Under the pieces are notes generated by a model. The model was not told where the DNA came from. It did no database searches and saw nothing but the letters and a program-made list of their open reading frames with translations. This document shows positions 6,522-62,210 of a DNA stretch of 64,000 bases, in pieces (positions within the stretch are counted from its first letter, which is position 1; each line of letters opens with the position of its first letter). A program made the translations under genes and the position numbers. The DNA is from a virus: IMG/VR virus record IMGVR_UViG_3300036668_000172, positions 1-64,000 of that record; one strand, written 5' to 3'.

Positions 6522-7574
6522 CTAGTTTCCCTTAATTAGTCGCAAATTTCCTTGTAAACGCTCGTTATCTGGCTCTAAGGCGAGCGCTTTAAGCGTGTAC
6601 TCAGTAGCAAGGTCTGGGTTTCCTAAGTTCCATGCAGCGATAGCACCGATGTCATAAGGGTGAGCCCCCCAAGCAAACTCTTCACATAAGTAATCAAGAG
6701 GTTTCTCTGTGAGGTTGTCCAACACAAACACTACTTGCTCTAGTGTGGCTTCCCAGTACTTGTTCTGGTAATACAAGAAGGCAAGCTCTAGACGTGCTTC
6801 TCTTCGCAGAGGGTCTTCAAGGATAGCTTTCTGCCACCACTCTAACTTCTCGTTAAATGTATTGCTGCACTTGGCCAAGTAGCGCATAGAGGCTGCTCGT
6901 TCTGGCTTCCATCGGGCAGTAGGCAGCGCTAGGTGCCGCTTAAACTCTTCGGAAGCTTCCGCTAGTTTGTTATTAAAGAACAGTTCACGAGCATAGTAAA
7001 AAGCATTGCGGTCATCATGGGGGTCTTCTTTAACAGACTGAGCCAACAAAGGGAAGTACTGAGACCTAGGCTTTGAGTTATCTGGGTGGTGGTGTATCTC
7101 TAACTTAATCCACTCCTGAACCTCAGCTAAGCGGTCACTAACGATTACTTCGTGTACTGGGTGCTTCCACCTGTAACCCTGGCGTCTGTGAATCTTATCG
7201 CCACCGTATACTAGCCCTGGCTTTTCTCCTACCCATGACCAGGTGTACTGGTATCTAGGGCGAGTAGTTTCAGGCCTAATACTCTCTAGCTCTTTGCGCC
7301 ATCCTGGAACTAAAACTTCGTCCATGTCTAAAGCAACACAGATGTCTACATCTAGAGGGATAGCCGCGAGAGAAGCATTGCGTGCATCATCAAATCGCCA
7401 AGGCTTAATACCTATTGATACCACATTGATACCAAGTGCTTTAGCTTTTTCTATAGTCCCATCTTGGGACCCAGTATCCGCAATCAGTAAGTAGTCTGCT
7501 TCTTTAGCAGACTCAAACCATGGCTCTACAAACTGTTCTTCATTTAGTGCGACTGTGTATACTGCTATCTTCAT
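6522..7574 (-). CDS. Family 2 glycosyltransferase with C-terminal TPR-like region
   Basis: A 350-residue GT-A fold glycosyltransferase that should transfer a sugar from a nucleotide-sugar donor. The N-terminal domain shows AVYTVALNEEQFVEPWF, the DTGSQDGT loop (33-40) and the DMDE metal-binding motif (83-86, a DXD equivalent). After about residue 200 the sequence becomes helical and tetratricopeptide-like (LRREARLELAFLYYQNKYWE and YTLKALALEPDNERLQGNLR), as in Beta4Glucosyltransferase/SunS-like enzymes. It sits in the middle of the fibre genes and may decorate a fibre or capsid protein; the acceptor is inference. Confidence 0.88.
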   Translation of the reverse strand: MKIAVYTVALNEEQFVEPWFESAKEADYLLIADTGSQDGTIEKAKALGINVVSIGIKPWRFDDARNASLAAIPLDVDICVALDMDEVLVPGWRKELESIRPETTRPRYQYTWSWVGEKPGLVYGGDKIHRRQGYRWKHPVHEVIVSDRLAEVQEWIKLEIHHHPDNSKPRSQYFPLLAQSVKEDPHDDRNAFYYARELFFNNKLAEASEEFKRHLALPTARWKPERAASMRYLAKCSNTFNEKLEWWQKAILEDPLRREARLELAFLYYQNKYWEATLEQVVFVLDNLTEKPLDYLCEEFAWGAHPYDIGAIAAWNLGNPDLATEYTLKALALEPDNERLQGNLRLIKGN

Positions 7575-27845: not shown

Positions 27846-29456
27846 TTAGTAAAACATGTTAGAGGTAGACTCCACCTCTGGCATAACTAGGTCCACAGTC
27901 ATAGAGCAGGCGATAGCTAACGAGTCTACGAAGTCATCATGGGCGTAGTTCTCCTTAGGAGCCTCCACAGAGAAGTTAGGTCCCTTGTAGGTAACTTCTG
28001 CGTCTGTCATCTGCTGGTAGAACTGCTTCCATACACGCAGTCTCTTTGTCTTAGCGTGAGACGGGAAAGAGAGCATGCGGCGCTGTATTAGCGCCTGCAA
28101 ATGTTTAAACCTTCTAGACTGCTCTGTAGGGCTAGAGGTAAGGCCAATCACTTCTGCTCTGGGCATTAAGACTTTTAGTCGTTGAGCGACAGCGTCGCCG
28201 ACTCCGTTCGAGTCCACCCCAATCGCGAGAACATCGTAGTTATTAAGAAAGTTAACGATTTGAAAATACTGTTCTTCCCAATCATCCCCTTGAATTTCCA
28301 GCCAGTTGAGAACTCTGTGGTCATAATAGCCAAACTCATCTGGGCGGTCCCAGTCAACCCAGACCACAGTGACAACAGTGGAGTCCATTTTTCTAGCAGG
28401 GTCGACTCCGACCACAACAGGGGTTTGATGCCAGACTTTGACGAGCTCTTGCGACTTGTCACCCAGTTCATCCAAGAGGGTAGCCGTAACAAACATGCCT
28501 CGCTCAAGAAGCCATTTGCAGTTGTAAGACATCTGGAACTCATCTGATTCTTCTCCAATTCGCAATGCCTCTTTCTTAATAAACTTTGCATAGTTCTTGT
28601 TGACTTTTGCTACGTCTTTCCAGTCCCACTGGTAGTGGTTCTGTCGAGCCCCACGCCCACTGGCGCGGCGCTTATTGAGCTGGATAGAACGGTAAAAGTT
28701 GTTCTTACTGGTGGTGGGTGTTCCTGTCTTTATCATGGTTCCTGCGTAATACGCAAGCATCGGAGCGATTGACTTAGAGACCACGAAGTCATCTGCTTCT
28801 TGGCACTCATCGATTACGATTACGTGGAACGACTTGGACTCAATCTTTGCGCGAGGGTTAGCTGTCATCATGGTGAGTGTTGACCCGAGCTTCTTCATGC
28901 GAATCATTCTGGTAACACCACCGACTTTGGCTGCCTCGTCATCTATTTCTGGGTCTCCCAGTACTTCAAGAGCAATCTCTGAGGTTAGTCGAGTGACCGT
29001 ACGAGAGAAGAGGGTTTCGGCCTGAGACTCAGTAGGAGCAAACATCCCTACCCACAAGCCATCTCTAAAGCGCCCTAGCAGGTCTGGGTATAGTTTTGCG
29101 AGAAGAGGCAGGAGAACCATGAGAGTTGCAAGTGTGTCAGATACAGTTTCAGTCTTTCCAGACTGGCGAGATGCTAGCGCAGTTACTTCTTCGCCGTCAT
29201 TTATAATAACGGACTCTATAATACGACGAGCTAAAGGCTTCTGGTATACGTGAAGGTCATGCCCGACCAAAACCTCCATAAAGGTCATAATCTTGTCTAT
29301 AAGCTTTATAACAAATGCGGTGGTTAGTTCGTCAGGTTCTTCGTCCCAGCCCTGTTCAGACTCATCTTCATGGTCTTCTTGATAGAACTCAGGGTTAATT
29401 TCCTCAAACTTCTCCCGCTCTTCAAAGTCATTTACTATTTCTTCGTAGTCAGCCAT
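27846..29456 (-). CDS. Terminase large subunit (packaging ATPase/nuclease)
   Basis: A 536-residue terminase that pumps DNA into the procapsid and cuts concatemers. The ATPase has Walker A ASRQSGKT (95-102) and Walker B VIVIDECQE (about 212-220) with the catalytic Glu. The RNase-H-like nuclease has D352 (VGVDPARK), D415 (AIGVDSNG) and acidic residues in AHDDFVDSLAIA (about 505-516). The first 45 residues are very acidic. No small terminase subunit is evident immediately upstream; the two small genes there are candidates only by position. Confidence 0.93.
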   Translation of the reverse strand: MADYEEIVNDFEEREKFEEINPEFYQEDHEDESEQGWDEEPDELTTAFVIKLIDKIMTFMEVLVGHDLHVYQKPLARRIIESVIINDGEEVTALASRQSGKTETVSDTLATLMVLLPLLAKLYPDLLGRFRDGLWVGMFAPTESQAETLFSRTVTRLTSEIALEVLGDPEIDDEAAKVGGVTRMIRMKKLGSTLTMMTANPRAKIESKSFHVIVIDECQEADDFVVSKSIAPMLAYYAGTMIKTGTPTTSKNNFYRSIQLNKRRASGRGARQNHYQWDWKDVAKVNKNYAKFIKKEALRIGEESDEFQMSYNCKWLLERGMFVTATLLDELGDKSQELVKVWHQTPVVVGVDPARKMDSTVVTVVWVDWDRPDEFGYYDHRVLNWLEIQGDDWEEQYFQIVNFLNNYDVLAIGVDSNGVGDAVAQRLKVLMPRAEVIGLTSSPTEQSRRFKHLQALIQRRMLSFPSHAKTKRLRVWKQFYQQMTDAEVTYKGPNFSVEAPKENYAHDDFVDSLAIACSMTVDLVMPEVESTSNMFY

Positions 29457-47568: not shown

Positions 47569-48930
47569 ATGTACGCAACACTTATACTCAGCCAGTCTCC
47601 TTACGGTGTAAGACAGACTGCTATCATCCCTACGCCATCAGGCGAAGTAAGAATAATGTACCGCTGTGGCTTTGGTCGTGGCTTAGGTGCAACTTGGATA
47701 GAGACTGCACCTGATGTAGATGCAATGCAAGAGCTCACACTCAATGCACCTGTGTCTTTGCTTATGACAGGAGCGCACTTACGTGACGTAGACTTCCTAG
47801 GTCGTACGCCAAACAACGTGCTACAAGCACTAGGTAAGCGCATCAGTACTAGCTTTGTCCCTAGTGTAGCTACCTTGCAAGAGGTGCACGACACAGTTAT
47901 GTCACTTGCAACTACCAACCCTGTGTCCCTCAGCAAGTTTGCACACAAGCAGATGACTGTTGTCACAGTGCCACCAGTAGTAGCACCTGTATTACAAGCT
48001 GTAATAGAGCCTGTAGTACAAGATGTACCAGAGCCGATTGCAGAGGTAGACCAGCTAGTTGTACCGACGCTATCCGCTAATCCTGCAAGCTCCACTGCAC
48101 GTAGCCTCAACATCCTCAATGTTCCAGAAGTTACCAGCTATCACGAACGTACCTTCGAGGACATTCCAGAGACCAAGGTGTACGACGTAGCTACCAAGAC
48201 ACAGCAAGCTGTGTTGCTTACAGGTGATGCAGGTACAGGCAAGACATCCAGTGCACGTAACTGTGCCGCTAGGCGTCAAGTACCGTTTGTAGTTATCGAG
48301 TGCACTCAGCAGATTGACAGCTCAATCATTCAAGGTAGGTTCGTACCAGAGGAAGACGGCAAGTCAGTCAAGTGGGTATACAGCCAACTAGCTACAGCAG
48401 TACAGCAGCCTTCTGTAATCCTGTTCAATGAGCTGACACGTATGTCTCCCAAGTCTGCTTCGTTGTTCTTGCGACTATTGCAAGAGCGTGAGTTGTTCAT
48501 CGAGCCATTCAATGAAGTAATCAAGCTACATCCTGAGTGCCTCATCATTGCAGATGCCAACGTAGGTACGTCATACAACGGCACCATGAGACAAGACGGT
48601 GCACTCATTGACCGCTTCAACATCAAGCTCAACTTTGTTTACGATGCAGACCTTGAAGCTAAGTTCCTTCCATACCCTGCACTGCTTGCGTTTGCTACAG
48701 GTATCCGCAAAGCATCAGCGCTAGGTATGGAAGACTTCAGTACTCCAATGTCTACTAGGTTGTTACAGAACTTTGCAATGCATGCCAACCACTTCAGTTG
48801 GGACTTTGCAGTTGCTAGGTTGCTTGCTAACTTCCCTACCGATACCAATGAGCGTGATGCAGTCAAGATGCGTCTTGATGCAGATGCCCCACGTATTGCC
48901 CAAGACTTCGGTGTTACTTTAAACCGATAG
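47569..48930 (+). CDS. MoxR-like AAA+ ATPase
   Basis: A 453-residue protein. The N-terminal 200 residues have no match and include Val/Pro-rich linkers. The AAA+ module has Walker A GDAGTGKT (219-226), Walker B in the form ILFNE (284-288, Asn in place of the usual Asp), sensor-1 IIADANVG and an Arg-finger type DRFN (about 348-351). The pairing with a von Willebrand protein downstream is typical of MoxR/CbbQ systems, in which the ATPase remodels a partner complex. It has a structured leader RNA upstream. Confidence 0.85.
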   Translation: MYATLILSQSPYGVRQTAIIPTPSGEVRIMYRCGFGRGLGATWIETAPDVDAMQELTLNAPVSLLMTGAHLRDVDFLGRTPNNVLQALGKRISTSFVPSVATLQEVHDTVMSLATTNPVSLSKFAHKQMTVVTVPPVVAPVLQAVIEPVVQDVPEPIAEVDQLVVPTLSANPASSTARSLNILNVPEVTSYHERTFEDIPETKVYDVATKTQQAVLLTGDAGTGKTSSARNCAARRQVPFVVIECTQQIDSSIIQGRFVPEEDGKSVKWVYSQLATAVQQPSVILFNELTRMSPKSASLFLRLLQERELFIEPFNEVIKLHPECLIIADANVGTSYNGTMRQDGALIDRFNIKLNFVYDADLEAKFLPYPALLAFATGIRKASALGMEDFSTPMSTRLLQNFAMHANHFSWDFAVARLLANFPTDTNERDAVKMRLDADAPRIAQDFGVTLNR

Positions 48931-48954
48931 CCAACCCAAAGATAGGAGAGCACA

Positions 48955-50781
48955 ATGAATTACACAGTAAGTAACTCTGTTATAAGCAAAGACACTATTC
49001 AAGATATGCACGCTGGCAAGCTTCAGTCTTCCATGGCTAAGTTCGCTCGCTCCATGGCCTTGCGGTCAGTGCAAGTCAATGTCAAAAGGTATCAGCATGA
49101 CTACATGCCTGACGCACCTGCATGGTCTGATGACCACACCATACACATCGCTCATGACAAAGACACAGGCAACATAGGGTCAGCTGACAATATCATCAGG
49201 CTCAAGGGGTTGCTGATACATGAGCTATCTCACGTGCTGTTTACCCCTCGCTCCAAGACTGCCTTAGTCAAGTGGGTGCGTGACAATCGCTTGTGGAATG
49301 CCTTCAACATCCTTGAGGACAACCGCATTGAGAACCTTATGGTTGCCAACATGTCTGGTGTCAAGCCTTGGTTAGTACACACCGTTACAACTGAGCTAAT
49401 CAAGACTGCACCTATTCAAGCTAACTCACTGCTACCGCTAGTGTGGGGACGCAAGTACCTGCCATTAGAGATACGCATGGCCGCACTTGATACGTGGAGA
49501 GTTCTCAATGCAGATGACATTACTGCACTGTTAGACGAGTACATTACACTCAACCTCCAACACAAACCAGACATATTACGAGCTACAGTAATCATAGGCA
49601 AGTTCTCTTCGGCACTACAGGAAGAGCAGGACCTTGATGGCAAGCCTCCTGTTGGGTCTATACACCATGGCACCACCTCGGAGACCGCTCCAGATAGCAA
49701 GGCAGACTCTCAACCCATGAGTAAAGCTCAGCAAGACAAGCTGCTTGATAAAGTAGAAGATGATAGTACACAGCCATCAAGTGATGATAGTGATGAGAGT
49801 AGTGCGAGTAGTGAGAGTGGTGCGAGTACTAGCTCTGGCAAGACTTTGGCTGAGCAACTACAAGATGCAGCAGACGCAGCAATGGACACGCTATTAGAGG
49901 ATGTAAAAAGCACTGTACAGTCTGTAAAAGAGTCTTCTGAGCCTGTAAATGTCATGGGTGACGATTCGGTATCTTCAAGAGAGAGCGACCAGCTCATCAA
50001 TCGAGTACCTGAGTACTCCAAGAAGCTTGAGACGCCTAGTGCTGATGCCCTGATAGCTTCAAGGCAGTTTGCTAAAGAGCTAACGGAGTTGCGTACTCAG
50101 CACGACCCAGGATGGATGCGGCGCTCAGACCAAGGTCGCCTAAACGTCAAGGACTTCATGTTGGGCACTGACTTAGAGGAAGCCTTTGACCAGTGGTCAG
50201 AAGGTAACCAAGATGTTACAGACATCGAATGCGTAGTGCTTCTCGACAACTCAGGTTCAATGGAAGACATGATTACCCCTGCTTACGAAGCTATGTGGGC
50301 AGTCAAGCGCGGGCTGGATAGTGTGCAAGCTAGCACTACAGTAATTCAGTACGGTAGTCGTGGTGAGATTCTATACGGGCCCAACCAACGTGCTTCCAAC
50401 CAAGTACTTACTGCACGTCATGCAGGTAGTAGTGGTGGCACTGACCCTTTCTGGAGCTTAAAGAAAGCCCATGAAATCCTTGCTGACTCTACTCGTGCTA
50501 TCAAGATGATGATAGTCATTACAGATGGCTCGTGGGGAAGTGCCCTAGCATGCGAAGAAGCTATCCTAGCCATGCGTGGCAACGGTGTGCTAACTGGTCT
50601 GGTGTTCTTAGCTGACCCCAATCCTAGTACCCAATGGCAGTACAGCAAGACAGCAGAAAATGAAATCATTGTTGATGCTCACAAGTGTGAAGTAGCAGTC
50701 ATGTTGACTGCACCAAGACAGTTAGTTGACTTTGCCAAGGACATCACTAAACTAAGTCAGAAGAGAGTAGAGAGGGTATAA
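48955..50781 (+). CDS. vWA-domain protein with HExxH motif (MoxR partner)
   Basis: A 608-residue protein. Residues 80-130 hold LLIHELSHVLF with H89-E90-x2-H93 and a downstream ILEDNRIEN (E121, E126), a gluzincin-like metal site. Residues about 230-330 are a Ser/Asp/Glu-rich linker. The C-terminal vWA domain begins near 423 with MIDAS D431-x-S433-x-S435 (LLDNSGSMED) and continues with the T and D of the metal site (GSWGSALACEEAIL). CobT/CbbO-like proteins pair vWA with MoxR ATPases. The added zinc-peptidase-like motif is unusual. Confidence 0.85.
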   Translation: MNYTVSNSVISKDTIQDMHAGKLQSSMAKFARSMALRSVQVNVKRYQHDYMPDAPAWSDDHTIHIAHDKDTGNIGSADNIIRLKGLLIHELSHVLFTPRSKTALVKWVRDNRLWNAFNILEDNRIENLMVANMSGVKPWLVHTVTTELIKTAPIQANSLLPLVWGRKYLPLEIRMAALDTWRVLNADDITALLDEYITLNLQHKPDILRATVIIGKFSSALQEEQDLDGKPPVGSIHHGTTSETAPDSKADSQPMSKAQQDKLLDKVEDDSTQPSSDDSDESSASSESGASTSSGKTLAEQLQDAADAAMDTLLEDVKSTVQSVKESSEPVNVMGDDSVSSRESDQLINRVPEYSKKLETPSADALIASRQFAKELTELRTQHDPGWMRRSDQGRLNVKDFMLGTDLEEAFDQWSEGNQDVTDIECVVLLDNSGSMEDMITPAYEAMWAVKRGLDSVQASTTVIQYGSRGEILYGPNQRASNQVLTARHAGSSGGTDPFWSLKKAHEILADSTRAIKMMIVITDGSWGSALACEEAILAMRGNGVLTGLVFLADPNPSTQWQYSKTAENEIIVDAHKCEVAVMLTAPRQLVDFAKDITKLSQKRVERV

Positions 50782-52283: not shown

Positions 52284-53783
52284 CTAGTCTTCTAACGATG
52301 TCTTAATAATTCGGGTAGTTTGCTGTTCATCTAAGGGCTGTTGCATCTCCCTTAAAGCCGACGCTTTGTCGCCAAATATAGCGCTCAAAACCCCTCCAGA
52401 AGTCTGCCTGCTGGCAGTGATGCTGACGAACTCTTTATTGCTTTCTAGGTCCTTCATATTAGCGACCAGTTTAAACAACCTGTCTACTTCTTGAGACACG
52501 TTCGGGTCGGCGTAGCCGCCGTTCATTTCTTCGGCAAATCGCATGAACGCTACCCTCTGACCTTGCATCTCTATAATAGTGGTCAGCAAATCTTTTAATT
52601 GTTCTCTGGTTTTAACCTCTACTGGCAGGTTAAATGCGCACGTGTTATCTGGCTTAAATGCAGGACAATTTGCTGCGACAAAACACGTATTACACTGTCT
52701 TAATGAGGTCTGTTGTGAGCGTACTACTGACACCTGTTTTAGGACATCTTTACCGTCCTCATCCTTGTCTACAATAGTCTTCGACTCAAACCCAAAAATA
52801 GGTAAATTAACCTTTTCTAGTGGGTCTCTGGCTATTACTTTTTTCCGCTCTTCTACCCCCTTGTTAGTAGAACCTACCCCACCCATTTCCATTAAACCTG
52901 TGTATAGGGTATCCTCGTTGTTATCTACTAACATCTCATCTTTGGAGGGTAAACCACCTTTTATGACTCTTAAATCTGGCTTATCTTTATCCATTTTGGC
53001 CTCTAACTGTAAATATGACCACACTGCTAACTTGGTGGCCTCTGTTGTGTCATCATCTACGAACTTCTTAAAATCTAAACTTGCCTTTTCCACGACGTTC
53101 TTGTATCGTAATCGGGCTTGGTCTTTCATCTTCTTTGGATACCGCACCAGTTTGGTGCCGTCCCATACAATGGTCTCACCTCTACGCATTGGTGATAACC
53201 AACTCAATGTGCTGGCTGTGTCGAATGGAATCTGTCGTAAGTTATCTGGCTTTGCTGTTCCTAATGCATGAAACTTCACGTCATTATTTGCTTTTAGGCT
53301 TCTAGTTAATCCTGCTAATGCTGGGACATTTTCAATTACTGAACCAGGTATTGCGATGTTCTCGTACTCCTGTGCCCACCTCTGTAATAATAAGGTGTTA
53401 TACGATTCGTGCCATACTACCCACATCTTTGGGTCGTTCTCGAATGCCGCACGTTCCTGTTGAATTCTAATTAATCCCCACTGCTGGGAGTCAAACTCAG
53501 TCCAACCCTCTATTCTGTCGTAATTTAACGCTATAAAATCTTGATAGTTGGCGGCGTACTCTTCCATCTCCCTGGCACTCAATCCTGCTTTATCTGCCTG
53601 GACTGCGCCTGAATCTACCCATACTTTCATGTCAGAATAGAATCGTTCACCAATTAAATAGTCTTTGGTCTTGGGTAATCCCCTCTTACACAATCCCCAA
53701 TAATTTAACATGACGTGAGTGACGCCATTCTTTTCTAATAACGTTCGGTTACTCGGAATCTCTACCCCGCCGAAGATAATCAA
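52284..53783 (-). CDS. TIM-barrel protein, possible TGT/DpdA-like, with C-terminal Cys cluster
   Basis: A 499-residue protein. The N-terminal 260 residues resemble the fold of tRNA-guanine transglycosylase-like DpdA enzymes, which put deazaguanines into phage DNA: MKVWVDSGAVQAD recalls the active DSGGF loop, and KFHALGTAKPDNLRQIPFDT the HALG/GxxxPxx loop. Residues about 380-405 hold four Cys (RQCNTCFVAANCPAFKPDNT then CAF), a possible zinc or Fe-S site. The last 90 residues are helical. No queuosine-precursor gene is in the window, so the assignment stays tentative. Confidence 0.45.
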   Translation of the reverse strand: MIIFGGVEIPSNRTLLEKNGVTHVMLNYWGLCKRGLPKTKDYLIGERFYSDMKVWVDSGAVQADKAGLSAREMEEYAANYQDFIALNYDRIEGWTEFDSQQWGLIRIQQERAAFENDPKMWVVWHESYNTLLLQRWAQEYENIAIPGSVIENVPALAGLTRSLKANNDVKFHALGTAKPDNLRQIPFDTASTLSWLSPMRRGETIVWDGTKLVRYPKKMKDQARLRYKNVVEKASLDFKKFVDDDTTEATKLAVWSYLQLEAKMDKDKPDLRVIKGGLPSKDEMLVDNNEDTLYTGLMEMGGVGSTNKGVEERKKVIARDPLEKVNLPIFGFESKTIVDKDEDGKDVLKQVSVVRSQQTSLRQCNTCFVAANCPAFKPDNTCAFNLPVEVKTREQLKDLLTTIIEMQGQRVAFMRFAEEMNGGYADPNVSQEVDRLFKLVANMKDLESNKEFVSITASRQTSGGVLSAIFGDKASALREMQQPLDEQQTTRIIKTSLED

Positions 53784-54271
53784 TCTCCGAACCTAACCGT
53801 TTCCGTGCGTATTATACGCCTGTCCTTGGTCATCATTTCATTTTGTTTTGCAACTGAGGCTGCGATGTCATCCCATGACCGAACTGACTTTGGTGCATCT
53901 GGGCGGAACTCTGGCCGCAAATAACCTGGAACTCCGAACATCAGGCTTGGAATACCTAAATCAAATGCAACTGCCCATAATGCTGGGTCTGACGTTATAA
54001 ATAGGTCTACTACGCTTTTTGCTCTGGCCAATTTGAGCTGCCTTGGCTTCAGCGGGTCGCCGTCAATTCCAACAGATGCGTCTATCATGTTGTCGTAATC
54101 TACGATTTTATTCTGGTTTATCCACTGCTGAGCATGGTTTGGGCTCAGGTCTGTAATAAACGAAATCTTGTTGTATGCGCTCAATGCTCCAGTGATGAGA
54201 ATCCCTTGTGGGATTGGCTCGTCGTTCCTGTAACCTCTTAATACGCCGTCTAAATCTATAACTATATGCAT
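53780..54271 (-). CDS. HAD-superfamily phosphatase
   Basis: A 163-residue HAD protein. Motif I is DLDGVL (residues 6-11), motif II FITDLS (about 38-43), and a Lys/Arg-rich motif III plus DLFITSDPALW (motif IV region) follow. It probably removes a phosphate from a small metabolite or nucleic-acid end; polynucleotide 3'-phosphatases and nucleotidases both have this size. It overlaps the TIM-barrel gene by four bases, which suggests they work in one pathway. Confidence 0.75.
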   Translation of the reverse strand: MHIVIDLDGVLRGYRNDEPIPQGILITGALSAYNKISFITDLSPNHAQQWINQNKIVDYDNMIDASVGIDGDPLKPRQLKLARAKSVVDLFITSDPALWAVAFDLGIPSLMFGVPGYLRPEFRPDAPKSVRSWDDIAASVAKQNEMMTKDRRIIRTETVRFGD

Positions 54272-54274
54272 GTT

Positions 54275-55153
54275 TTAAATACTAGTACGGTATGTCGCTG
54301 CTCGTCTTATCAAAGTTCTTGTGTCTGGAATTACTGGTCGGTCGGCTTCCCCGTAATCTCTGACTTTCTTCAACAACTGAACTGCGCCCGTGCTCTTGCC
54401 GCCTTGCCAGCGGTAGTTATGGAAATCATAATAACCTTCACCACCTGTAGTAAAGGCTTGATGACGACCACCATGTATTTCACCAAACAATGCTTCGGCC
54501 TGCTGCTGTGCAGCGGCCATCCTGACCTCAGCATTTCTCCTGTTAGCATCTGCGTGCGAGGTCTGAACATCGTTCAACGCTGATGTAAATCTAGTATGAA
54601 CCTGTATCGCTGTTCTAGAGTCGCCTTCGACTACCATTTGCCACGCTGGGTTGTCGGGTGCCTGCTGTGCGGGGTCTGGTGCGACTGTCCACTCATCGTA
54701 TTTTAGGTCATACGCAGCGTAAGGGTTGATTGACTTAATGTTCTCAGCACCTGGATTTACGTAAAAGGTTAGCTCGTAACCATTCCAGTCTTCGGTATTG
54801 GGCTGAAGCAGGCTGCGGAACAACTCGTTTATCATGTCCGCGATTTCTGCGTCTAACAGACCAGAATACTCTGGGTTGGCTTTACGGAATTGAATACTGT
54901 TTATACCCACTAAACAGTCGAGGTCACTTGGCTTCCTGGCCGCTGACCACTGATAACTAACGCCTGAACCCGCTAACCACGCATGTGACCATAACTCTGA
55001 ATGACGATACTCGCGGTTAAAGAAATCAGCGAGCAGTTGCAAGATACCTTGACGAACCCAACTCTTTAGGTTTCTACCTTCAAACAGGATGGGGTCAAGA
55101 CTTTGCGACGGCTCGCTGAAATACGAAGTGGAGTACATACCTAGACCAGACAT
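54275..55153 (-). CDS. Nucleotidyltransferase-fold protein
   Basis: A 292-residue protein with the polymerase-beta-like nucleotidyltransferase core: GSGVSYQW, then SDLDCLV (residues about 75-82, the Asp-x-Asp pair), an Ile-rich helix and a third acidic strand in NGYELTFYVNP. The C-terminal 90 residues are helical and Ala/Gln-rich. It probably adds nucleotides to RNA, a small molecule or a protein. Similar genes are seen in actinobacteriophages. It is near HAD and TIM-barrel genes, so these three may form a modification pathway. Confidence 0.7.
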   Translation of the reverse strand: MSGLGMYSTSYFSEPSQSLDPILFEGRNLKSWVRQGILQLLADFFNREYRHSELWSHAWLAGSGVSYQWSAARKPSDLDCLVGINSIQFRKANPEYSGLLDAEIADMINELFRSLLQPNTEDWNGYELTFYVNPGAENIKSINPYAAYDLKYDEWTVAPDPAQQAPDNPAWQMVVEGDSRTAIQVHTRFTSALNDVQTSHADANRRNAEVRMAAAQQQAEALFGEIHGGRHQAFTTGGEGYYDFHNYRWQGGKSTGAVQLLKKVRDYGEADRPVIPDTRTLIRRAATYRTSI

Positions 55154-55174: not shown

Positions 55175-55456
55175 CTACTTAGATTCTGGCTTAATGCCAC
55201 GTTCCTTTAATGCGGATGCAATCTTCTCTGCTGTGCTTGGCTGGTTATCTATACCCAAACGCTCAGTTAATACGTCCGCAACCTTCTGGGCTAGGATGGT
55301 TGATTCAAACTCATCAACAATCTGCTTACAGGTTTGATAGATATCAAAATTGTTTACTGGCCTATCTACCTCAATACCTTCATCTGGCATTGTGGGTAGG
55401 GTGGTGATTTTTCCGTCTGGGGTTGTTGCTGCTATAAAAAAGACTTCTGCCTTCAT
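55175..55456 (-). CDS. Hypothetical protein, 93 aa
   Basis: A 93-residue protein (MKAEVFFIAATTPDGKITTL, then QIVDEFESTILAQKVADVLT) with an N-terminal strand and a C-terminal helix. No domain is recognised. It lies between the zinc-binding gene at 55453 and the nucleotidyltransferase, with a four-base overlap upstream. Confidence 0.5.
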   Translation of the reverse strand: MKAEVFFIAATTPDGKITTLPTMPDEGIEVDRPVNNFDIYQTCKQIVDEFESTILAQKVADVLTERLGIDNQPSTAEKIASALKERGIKPESK

Positions 55457-56013
55457 TTGTACATGCCTCTCATTGCTCGTTTTTTAGTGGTCGCTACGCT
55501 GTGGAATGGGCAGAAATGGCACAGGTACACCTTCGGTGCTCCTGAACTTGCTGGGTCTGGTAACCCCAACTCCATGCGTTCTTTATCTGTCTTCGGTAAC
55601 AGACGCTTTGCTTCGGATTCGTAGTCGGGACATCCTGGGTCTGATGGTCGCAAATGGTAGTTGTAACACTCCATTGCGGACTCTGCAAACTCCATTTTAG
55701 AGTTGTAGAAGTTTTTATCTGGGTCTATCGCATCTAGACCCTCTGACCCGCCGCCCTTCAGCTGCTCGATGATTGCCTTGCGGCTCTCAACTTTTTCCCA
55801 TGTCTTAAATGGTAGTAGGAACATTTTGCCCATGTGGCGCTCGCCACTGGGAAACTCATGCTTTTCTAGGGTTAGCTCCAGCAGGACATCCGTCTCTGGT
55901 GGGCCGTCATGTGGAGGTAACTCGTCAATACTATTGCAAACTAGGCAATAGACTAAACGGATAACGGGCCCATCGTGGAATTCCCGTTTTCCAATTAGTG
56001 GGGCTTCAGACAT
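55453..56013 (-). CDS. Hypothetical zinc-binding protein, 186 aa
   Basis: A 186-residue protein with cysteine pairs near the ends (YCLVCNS at about 21-27 and CHFCPFHS at about 168-175), which may form one zinc site in the folded protein. The middle includes ELTLEKHEFPSGERHMGKMF and NFYNSKMEFAESAMECYNYH. Similar genes occur in other actinobacteriophages, as far as I recall. The function is unknown. Confidence 0.55.
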   Translation of the reverse strand: MSEAPLIGKREFHDGPVIRLVYCLVCNSIDELPPHDGPPETDVLLELTLEKHEFPSGERHMGKMFLLPFKTWEKVESRKAIIEQLKGGGSEGLDAIDPDKNFYNSKMEFAESAMECYNYHLRPSDPGCPDYESEAKRLLPKTDKERMELGLPDPASSGAPKVYLCHFCPFHSVATTKKRAMRGMYK

Positions 56014-61907: not shown

Positions 61908-62210
61908 TTAGCTTGCTGTAACGGTAAAGACTATTGCGCTTATTTCGCCATCTCTGGAGTCAATAGTTGTAAATCCTGGTTTGCAGGTTAGGTCAAGACC
62001 ACGTGGTGCGGCATAGCCTCTTGCAATAGCAATGGCTTTAACGGCTTGGTTTACAGCGCCTGCGCCTACTGCGCGTATCTTTACTTGCCTAGTGTCGTAG
62101 CAAGCGTGGGCAATTGCTGACGCTACGGACTGGGGGTTTGACCCTGCAGAGACTCTTAGGAAGGGTTCTTCGGTTTTTGGTAGAACTACATTCTCGGGTG
62201 TTTCACTCAA
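61908..62210 (-). CDS. SpoVS-family (Alba-like) protein
   Basis: A 100-residue protein. The core RVSAGSNPQSVASAIAHACY, then IRAVGAGAVNQAVKAIAIAR and GYAAPRGLDLTCKPGFTTID, matches stage V sporulation protein S, a small Alba-fold protein proposed to bind nucleic acids, best known in Firmicutes and Deinococcus-Thermus. All the conserved Gly-Ala-Gly-Ala-x-NQAVKA residues are present. A phage copy could bind DNA or RNA or interfere with host development; the role is not known. Confidence 0.88.
   Translation of the reverse strand: MSETPENVVLPKTEEPFLRVSAGSNPQSVASAIAHACYDTRQVKIRAVGAGAVNQAVKAIAIARGYAAPRGLDLTCKPGFTTIDSRDGEISAIVFTVTAS

Follow-up and report, generated by a model that had tools for sequence, protein, structure and literature searches.

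The window analysed here, bases 1–64000 of an 83,749 bp (83.7 kb) viral record, carries three closely packed genes that raise the question of whether the phage exchanges bases in its own DNA. In a first-pass annotation their products were described as a TIM-barrel protein, perhaps related to TGT or DpdA, a small HAD hydrolase and a polymerase-beta-like nucleotidyltransferase (NTase), which together might change bases in DNA or RNA using deazaguanine precursors from the host or from elsewhere. We asked how far the active sites of these proteins, their relatives and their gene neighbourhoods bear out that reading.

The three-gene module and its relatives

The record has the marks of a tailed phage (major head protein, portal, large terminase, tail fibres and replication genes) and includes two WhiB-like genes, pointing to an actinobacterial host. 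The three open reading frames were confirmed and all lie on the minus strand (Table 1). They had been described as overlapping, which is correct for the HAD-like and DpdA-like genes (4 nt) but not for the NTase and HAD-like genes, which are 3 nt apart. As homologues are present in many viral contigs and in Streptomyces phages, and as the order NTase-HAD-DpdA is kept in 239 of the 247 loci with enough flanking sequence, Streptomyces phages included, chance open reading frames can be ruled out. Elsewhere in the window, a glycosyltransferase gene (6522–7574; phrog_13126, E=8e-108) adjoins collagen-like tail fibre genes, an AAA+ ATPase with a porphyrin-biosynthesis/CobS-like profile is followed by a protein resembling a VWA-domain partner (47569–50781, on the opposite strand), and a match to the SpoVS-like sporulation protein family is found at 61908–62210 (phrog_35646, E=1e-26).

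Table 1. Genes of the module and the two genes next to it
Product	Position	Strand	Length and features
DpdA/TGT-like protein	52284..53783	-	499 aa; TTG start
Small HAD-like protein	53780..54271	-	163 aa; motif DLDGVL
Polymerase-beta-type nucleotidyltransferase (NTase)-like protein	54275..55153	-	292 aa; GS...DxD...E
93-aa protein	55175..55456	-	In freshwater relatives its usual place is between the genes for the 186-aa protein and the NTase
186-aa Cys/His-rich protein	55453..56013	-	Upstream of the module; six invariant Cys

Pattern scans found the DpdA-like protein in at least 466 and the NTase in at least 531 viral contigs, and many viral records may be fragments. Homologues of the module proteins occur in six Streptomyces phage records, the phages with the module being BRock, GiJojo, LuckySocke, Alone3 and pSt2308. 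The actinobacterial genomes of Nonomuraea, Terracoccus, Saccharothrix, Streptomyces and Herbidospora also have contigs with relatives, which suggests prophages. In the Streptomyces phages only, a gene for a disordered protein with a conserved C-terminus lies between the HAD-like and DpdA-like genes (L001:12781-13947, L002:12996-13826 and L003:11184-11942). The 186-aa protein is always found upstream of the module; its Streptomyces phage version is 31% identical, and it has no family match.

Exactly one phrog_887 protein is encoded in each of 40 genomes of relatives (40/40). These genomes, like the other relatives, were found via the DpdA-like gene, so that its occurrence in every one of them reflects selection, which does not affect the single copy or the absence of other genes. 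One copy per genome and a shared gene order within one broad lineage, the gene for the 186-aa protein included, are what would be expected if these were simply core genes inherited vertically together that need not act together. However, the order of the HAD/DpdA pair and the NTase survives at 23–35% identity between freshwater and Streptomyces phages, despite swapped neighbours and the insertion of an endolysin gene or gp37. HAD and DpdA genes are no more than 60 nt apart in most loci, and most pairs abut or overlap. We therefore consider co-inheritance alone quite improbable. Four divergent loci (L248, L249, L251 and L271) retain the HAD-like and DpdA-like genes and have no recognisable NTase.

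The DpdA-like barrel and its active site

The full-length window protein matches phrog_887 (queuine tRNA-ribosyltransferase; E=6.3e-65), a family that also includes the N-terminal half of the DpdA of Enterobacteria phage 9g. A comparison of its barrel with nine reference DpdAs, of the kind proposed in the first-pass annotation, returned a clear match (hhalign 99%, E=3e-19, score 136.8, with shuffled controls reaching at most 21.8). Several queuine tRNA-ribosyltransferases were among the viral Foldseek (BFVD) matches. In a Foldseek search of the PDB, the barrel matched TIM barrels of a generic kind and had no match at E≤0.001, and PDB profile searches with all three families returned nothing significant. 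Over the barrel, homology to DpdA is firm. An AlphaFold2 model built with rows from IMG/VR copies predicts a confident barrel (pLDDT ~90 for residues 1–260) and an uncertain C-terminal part. The 499 aa would be laid out as a barrel (~1–265), a low-confidence linker (~266–336) and a four-Cys and helical C-terminal domain (~355–499).

TGTs use two Asp residues, in Z. mobilis numbering Asp280, which attacks the sugar, and Asp102 (PMC6165067). In our own alignment, anchored on established TGT motifs, Asp280 is equivalent to the Asp of the VDS/CDS/ADS motif of DpdA. All ten reference DpdAs have this Asp. It occupies the HMM column of position 191 of the window protein in 9g, Dp-1, Cracklewink, Knocker, Salmonella 7-11 and BS162P1, and it stands in a VDS, TDS or ADS motif in Hedgerow (Rosebush type), CRB2, Nicole72 and Burr. 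Between H172 and W195 the alignment of the window protein with 9g DpdA has no gaps, and the window protein has S191 at this position. In this and the other residue counts, distinct sequences serve as units despite their kinship; position 191 is Ser in 160 of the 170 relatives, Ala in eight, Thr in two and Asp in none. As the attacking Asp is replaced by Ser, Ala or Thr throughout the family, standard base exchange has presumably been lost.

Other parts of the active site persist. The motifs listed for the barrel protein in the first-pass annotation are all present (D57-S58-G59-A60, H172-A-L-G and C364-x2-C367-x5-C373-x8-C382). The second catalytic Asp, that of the DSG motif, is D57 in the window protein; across the family this position is Asp in 72 sequences, Glu in 89, about half, and non-acidic in six. 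E96 is invariant (168/168), the base-recognition Asp D98 is kept in 163 of 168 sequences, and H172, the counterpart of the conserved DpdA His (H196 of 9g DpdA), in 165 of 170. The barrel also contains an invariant basic stretch, R214-Y215...K220...R224. G202, T204, I205, R214, Y215 and R224 are conserved in 170/170 and, like the four Cys, are under purifying selection. The zinc site of TGTs is formed by three Cys in CxCxxC spacing and a His. That spacing is absent here, and the Cys pattern of the window protein, C-x2-C-x5-C-x8-C, lies ~100 residues past the barrel.

Could the protein nonetheless work as an ordinary DpdA, in which Ser or an acidic residue nearby does the job of the Asp and preQ0, scavenged or supplied by the host, is inserted into phage DNA? 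The homology is clear, and phages that have DpdA and no precursor genes exist; one of them, Salmonella 7-11, has traces of dADG, but the DNA of another, Mycobacterium phage Orion, is unmodified (PMC6884629). The nucleophile is missing from every relative, even though the DpdA-only phages 7-11 and Burr retain it. Precursor genes are also missing: the first-pass annotation had reported none in the window, and QueC, QueD and FolE are absent from the whole 83,749 bp record. Profile searches in which controls were detected found QueC in 0/40, QueD in 0/35 and FolE in 0/20 genomes of relatives. With the HAD nucleophile not conserved either (see below), base exchange with a host precursor was not borne out, and we consider an ordinary DpdA improbable. 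The guess of a DpdA/TGT-like protein was right about ancestry, but the activity drawn from it is not supported.

DpdA-only phages, among them the unmodified Orion group, cannot all be explained by loss of this Asp, as Burr, which belongs to the same cluster as Orion (B1), and Salmonella 7-11 keep it. The DpdA-like open reading frame of Burr (L340; DSGG... and a TADS motif) is on the minus strand, within the structural-gene half of the genome.

The C-terminal domain and the partner proteins

The C-terminal domain has four invariant Cys (169/169) and two predicted long helices, and it is related to that of the terminase small subunits (TerS) of large actinophages, a relationship newly reported here. 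Its profile matches TerS from phages of Gordonia, Tsukamurella and Rhodococcus (hhalign 87%, E=4e-6, score 47.4, with 60 shuffles reaching at most 28.3). Foldseek also returned Gordonia phage Jumbo TerS (E=5e-6), with the TM kept low by the poor model of the C-terminal part. The TerS profile phrog_6902 matches only the DpdA-like gene in 19 of 35 genomes. Small subunits of the Terminase_2 or Terminase_4 families were found in none of 20 genomes, although the lack of a profile match carries little weight. The idea that Jumbo-type TerS contain, in their N-terminal half, a degraded form of the same barrel was rejected, as the hhalign scores fall within the shuffled controls.

A separate version of the domain occurs in gut phages. 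Bacteroides phage BS162P1 and gut phage MT835482 encode the domain in a gene of its own, which directly follows that of a DpdA with both catalytic Asp in a 7-deazaguanine cluster with QueC- and QueE-like genes. This accessory protein matches the C-terminal domain of the window family (hhalign 99%, E=4e-20) and also TerS (hhalign 93%, E=2.6e-7). As the domain stands beside a catalytic DpdA in these phages, it may simply serve DNA handling by DpdA. In MT835482.1 the cluster order is QueC - DpdA - accessory - QueE, and the DpdA (L327:2521-4719) seems to be interrupted by an intein immediately behind its catalytic Asp motif (FFSSDSS ... HN TTWLGG).

The calls for the other two proteins rest on motifs and, for the NTase, also on a good AlphaFold2 model (pLDDT 90) that has no significant PDB match in Foldseek. 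The NTase motif is G62-S63...D77-L-D79...E127; G62, S63, D77 and D79 are invariant in 142/142 relatives and E127 in 144/144. GS, DxD and the third acidic residue are thus all in place, as in polymerase-beta-like nucleotidyltransferases. The HAD-like protein of the window has DLDGVL, but at its nucleophile position (position 6) only 15 of 142 relatives have Asp, whereas 62 have Ser and 32 Glu, and no Pfam or PDB profile matched a HAD fold.

TGT is a tRNA enzyme, and NTase and HAD phosphatase resemble parts of RNA-repair systems. The three proteins could thus act on host or phage tRNA, in repair or modification, and not on DNA. BRock also encodes an RNA ligase, a polynucleotide kinase and another nucleotidyltransferase, but these genes are some 18–39 kb from its module. 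In addition, the closest homologues of the barrel are DpdAs that act on DNA, the C-terminal domain has relatives among DNA-packaging proteins, and the HAD nucleophile has been lost. An RNA module is therefore very improbable.

The barrel might instead have been retooled to act on a DNA base by other chemistry, with the NTase adding or activating a group, to give a novel DNA modification. One example would be exchange or removal assisted by Glu96 and Asp98 that needs no covalent Asp-sugar intermediate. What makes such chemistry possible is that the pocket has kept acidic residues: D/E57, E96 and D98 argue against a wholly inert site, and H172 is conserved with them. No relative has lost the NTase motif, the NTase gene is tightly linked, and deazaguanine clusters also contain the C-terminal domain together with intact DpdAs. 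Against this stand the loss of the attacking Asp in 170/170, the six sequences with no acidic residue at position 57, the four divergent loci that do without the NTase, and the lack of precursor genes. We regard a retooled enzyme as unlikely.

A proposed DNA-recognition protein and its known relatives

The explanation that we tentatively prefer is a DpdA-derived, non-transglycosylating DNA-recognition protein, perhaps a packaging recognition subunit, that would act with the NTase and the HAD-like protein. It draws on the DpdA fold, the missing attacking Asp, the packaging-type domain, the single copy and the presence of the gene in every genome searched. The protein descends from phage DpdA, a DNA-guanine transglycosylase, and would have lost standard base exchange with the Asp that attacks C1' of the sugar. 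Its barrel keeps the general architecture, D98, H172 and the basic stretch, and is fused to the four-Cys and helical domain common to terminase small subunits. The protein may bind, and so read, phage DNA without replacing a base, and this reading would most likely serve to tag or pick out the genome for packaging or replication. Two products of the same unit would take part, the NTase as an active enzyme and the HAD-like protein as a partner without catalysis.

A packaging role is only plausible, because the DpdA-like gene is not beside the large terminase gene: the latter is at 27846–29456 and the module at 52284–55153, whereas the TerS genes of the Gordonia, Tsukamurella and Rhodococcus phages adjoin the large terminase gene. 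Nor do the N-terminal parts of these TerS have a detectable relation to the barrel. In the boldest version, a DpdA-type enzyme was disarmed by loss of its attacking Asp, was fused to a terminase-small-subunit domain and now lets many actinophages recognise their own DNA, helped by the NTase and HAD-like protein; this is a doubtful proposition at present. The deazaguanine cassette of the first-pass annotation is a less likely reading.

Proteins of this family are labelled queuine tRNA-ribosyltransferase or dpdA-like in phrog_887 and GenBank, and 7-deazaguanine DNA is predicted from labels of this kind. For this large actinophage family the label is right for ancestry and probably wrong for chemistry. 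The link between DpdA and a terminase-type domain, in split and fused forms, suggests a contact between DNA modification and packaging that is testable in culturable Streptomyces phages.

Among known systems, the DpdAs of 9g, Rosebush-type phages and Dp-1 belong to the same barrel family, and the window protein shares their DSG, base-recognition Asp and DpdA His. It differs in the Ser/Ala/Thr-type nucleophile position, the extra C-terminal domain and the lack of deazaguanine synthesis genes in the relatives searched. In BS162P1 and MT835482 the homologue of the C-terminal domain is a separate protein, and the DpdA there has both catalytic Asp and is flanked by QueC and QueE, unlike in the window. 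TerS of Gordonia (Jumbo and GMA3), Tsukamurella (TIN2/TIN4) and Rhodococcus (Mbo2) phages (phrog_16015 and phrog_6902) share the domain, but their N-terminal domain differs and their genes immediately precede that of the large terminase. Eukaryotic TGT has a noncatalytic subunit, QTRT2, which also has the TGT fold and in which the two catalytic Asp are changed (PMC6165067). However, QTRT2 pairs with catalytic QTRT1, and as each of the 40 genomes has one copy, with no second DpdA-like protein to act as a catalytic partner, a pairing of this kind is not supported in these phages. GiJojo gp178–181 and BRock gp36–39 are homologous modules with ~33–36% identity for DpdA and NTase; these differ from the window in the disordered gene between HAD and DpdA, and GiJojo gp181 is already annotated as dpdA-like.
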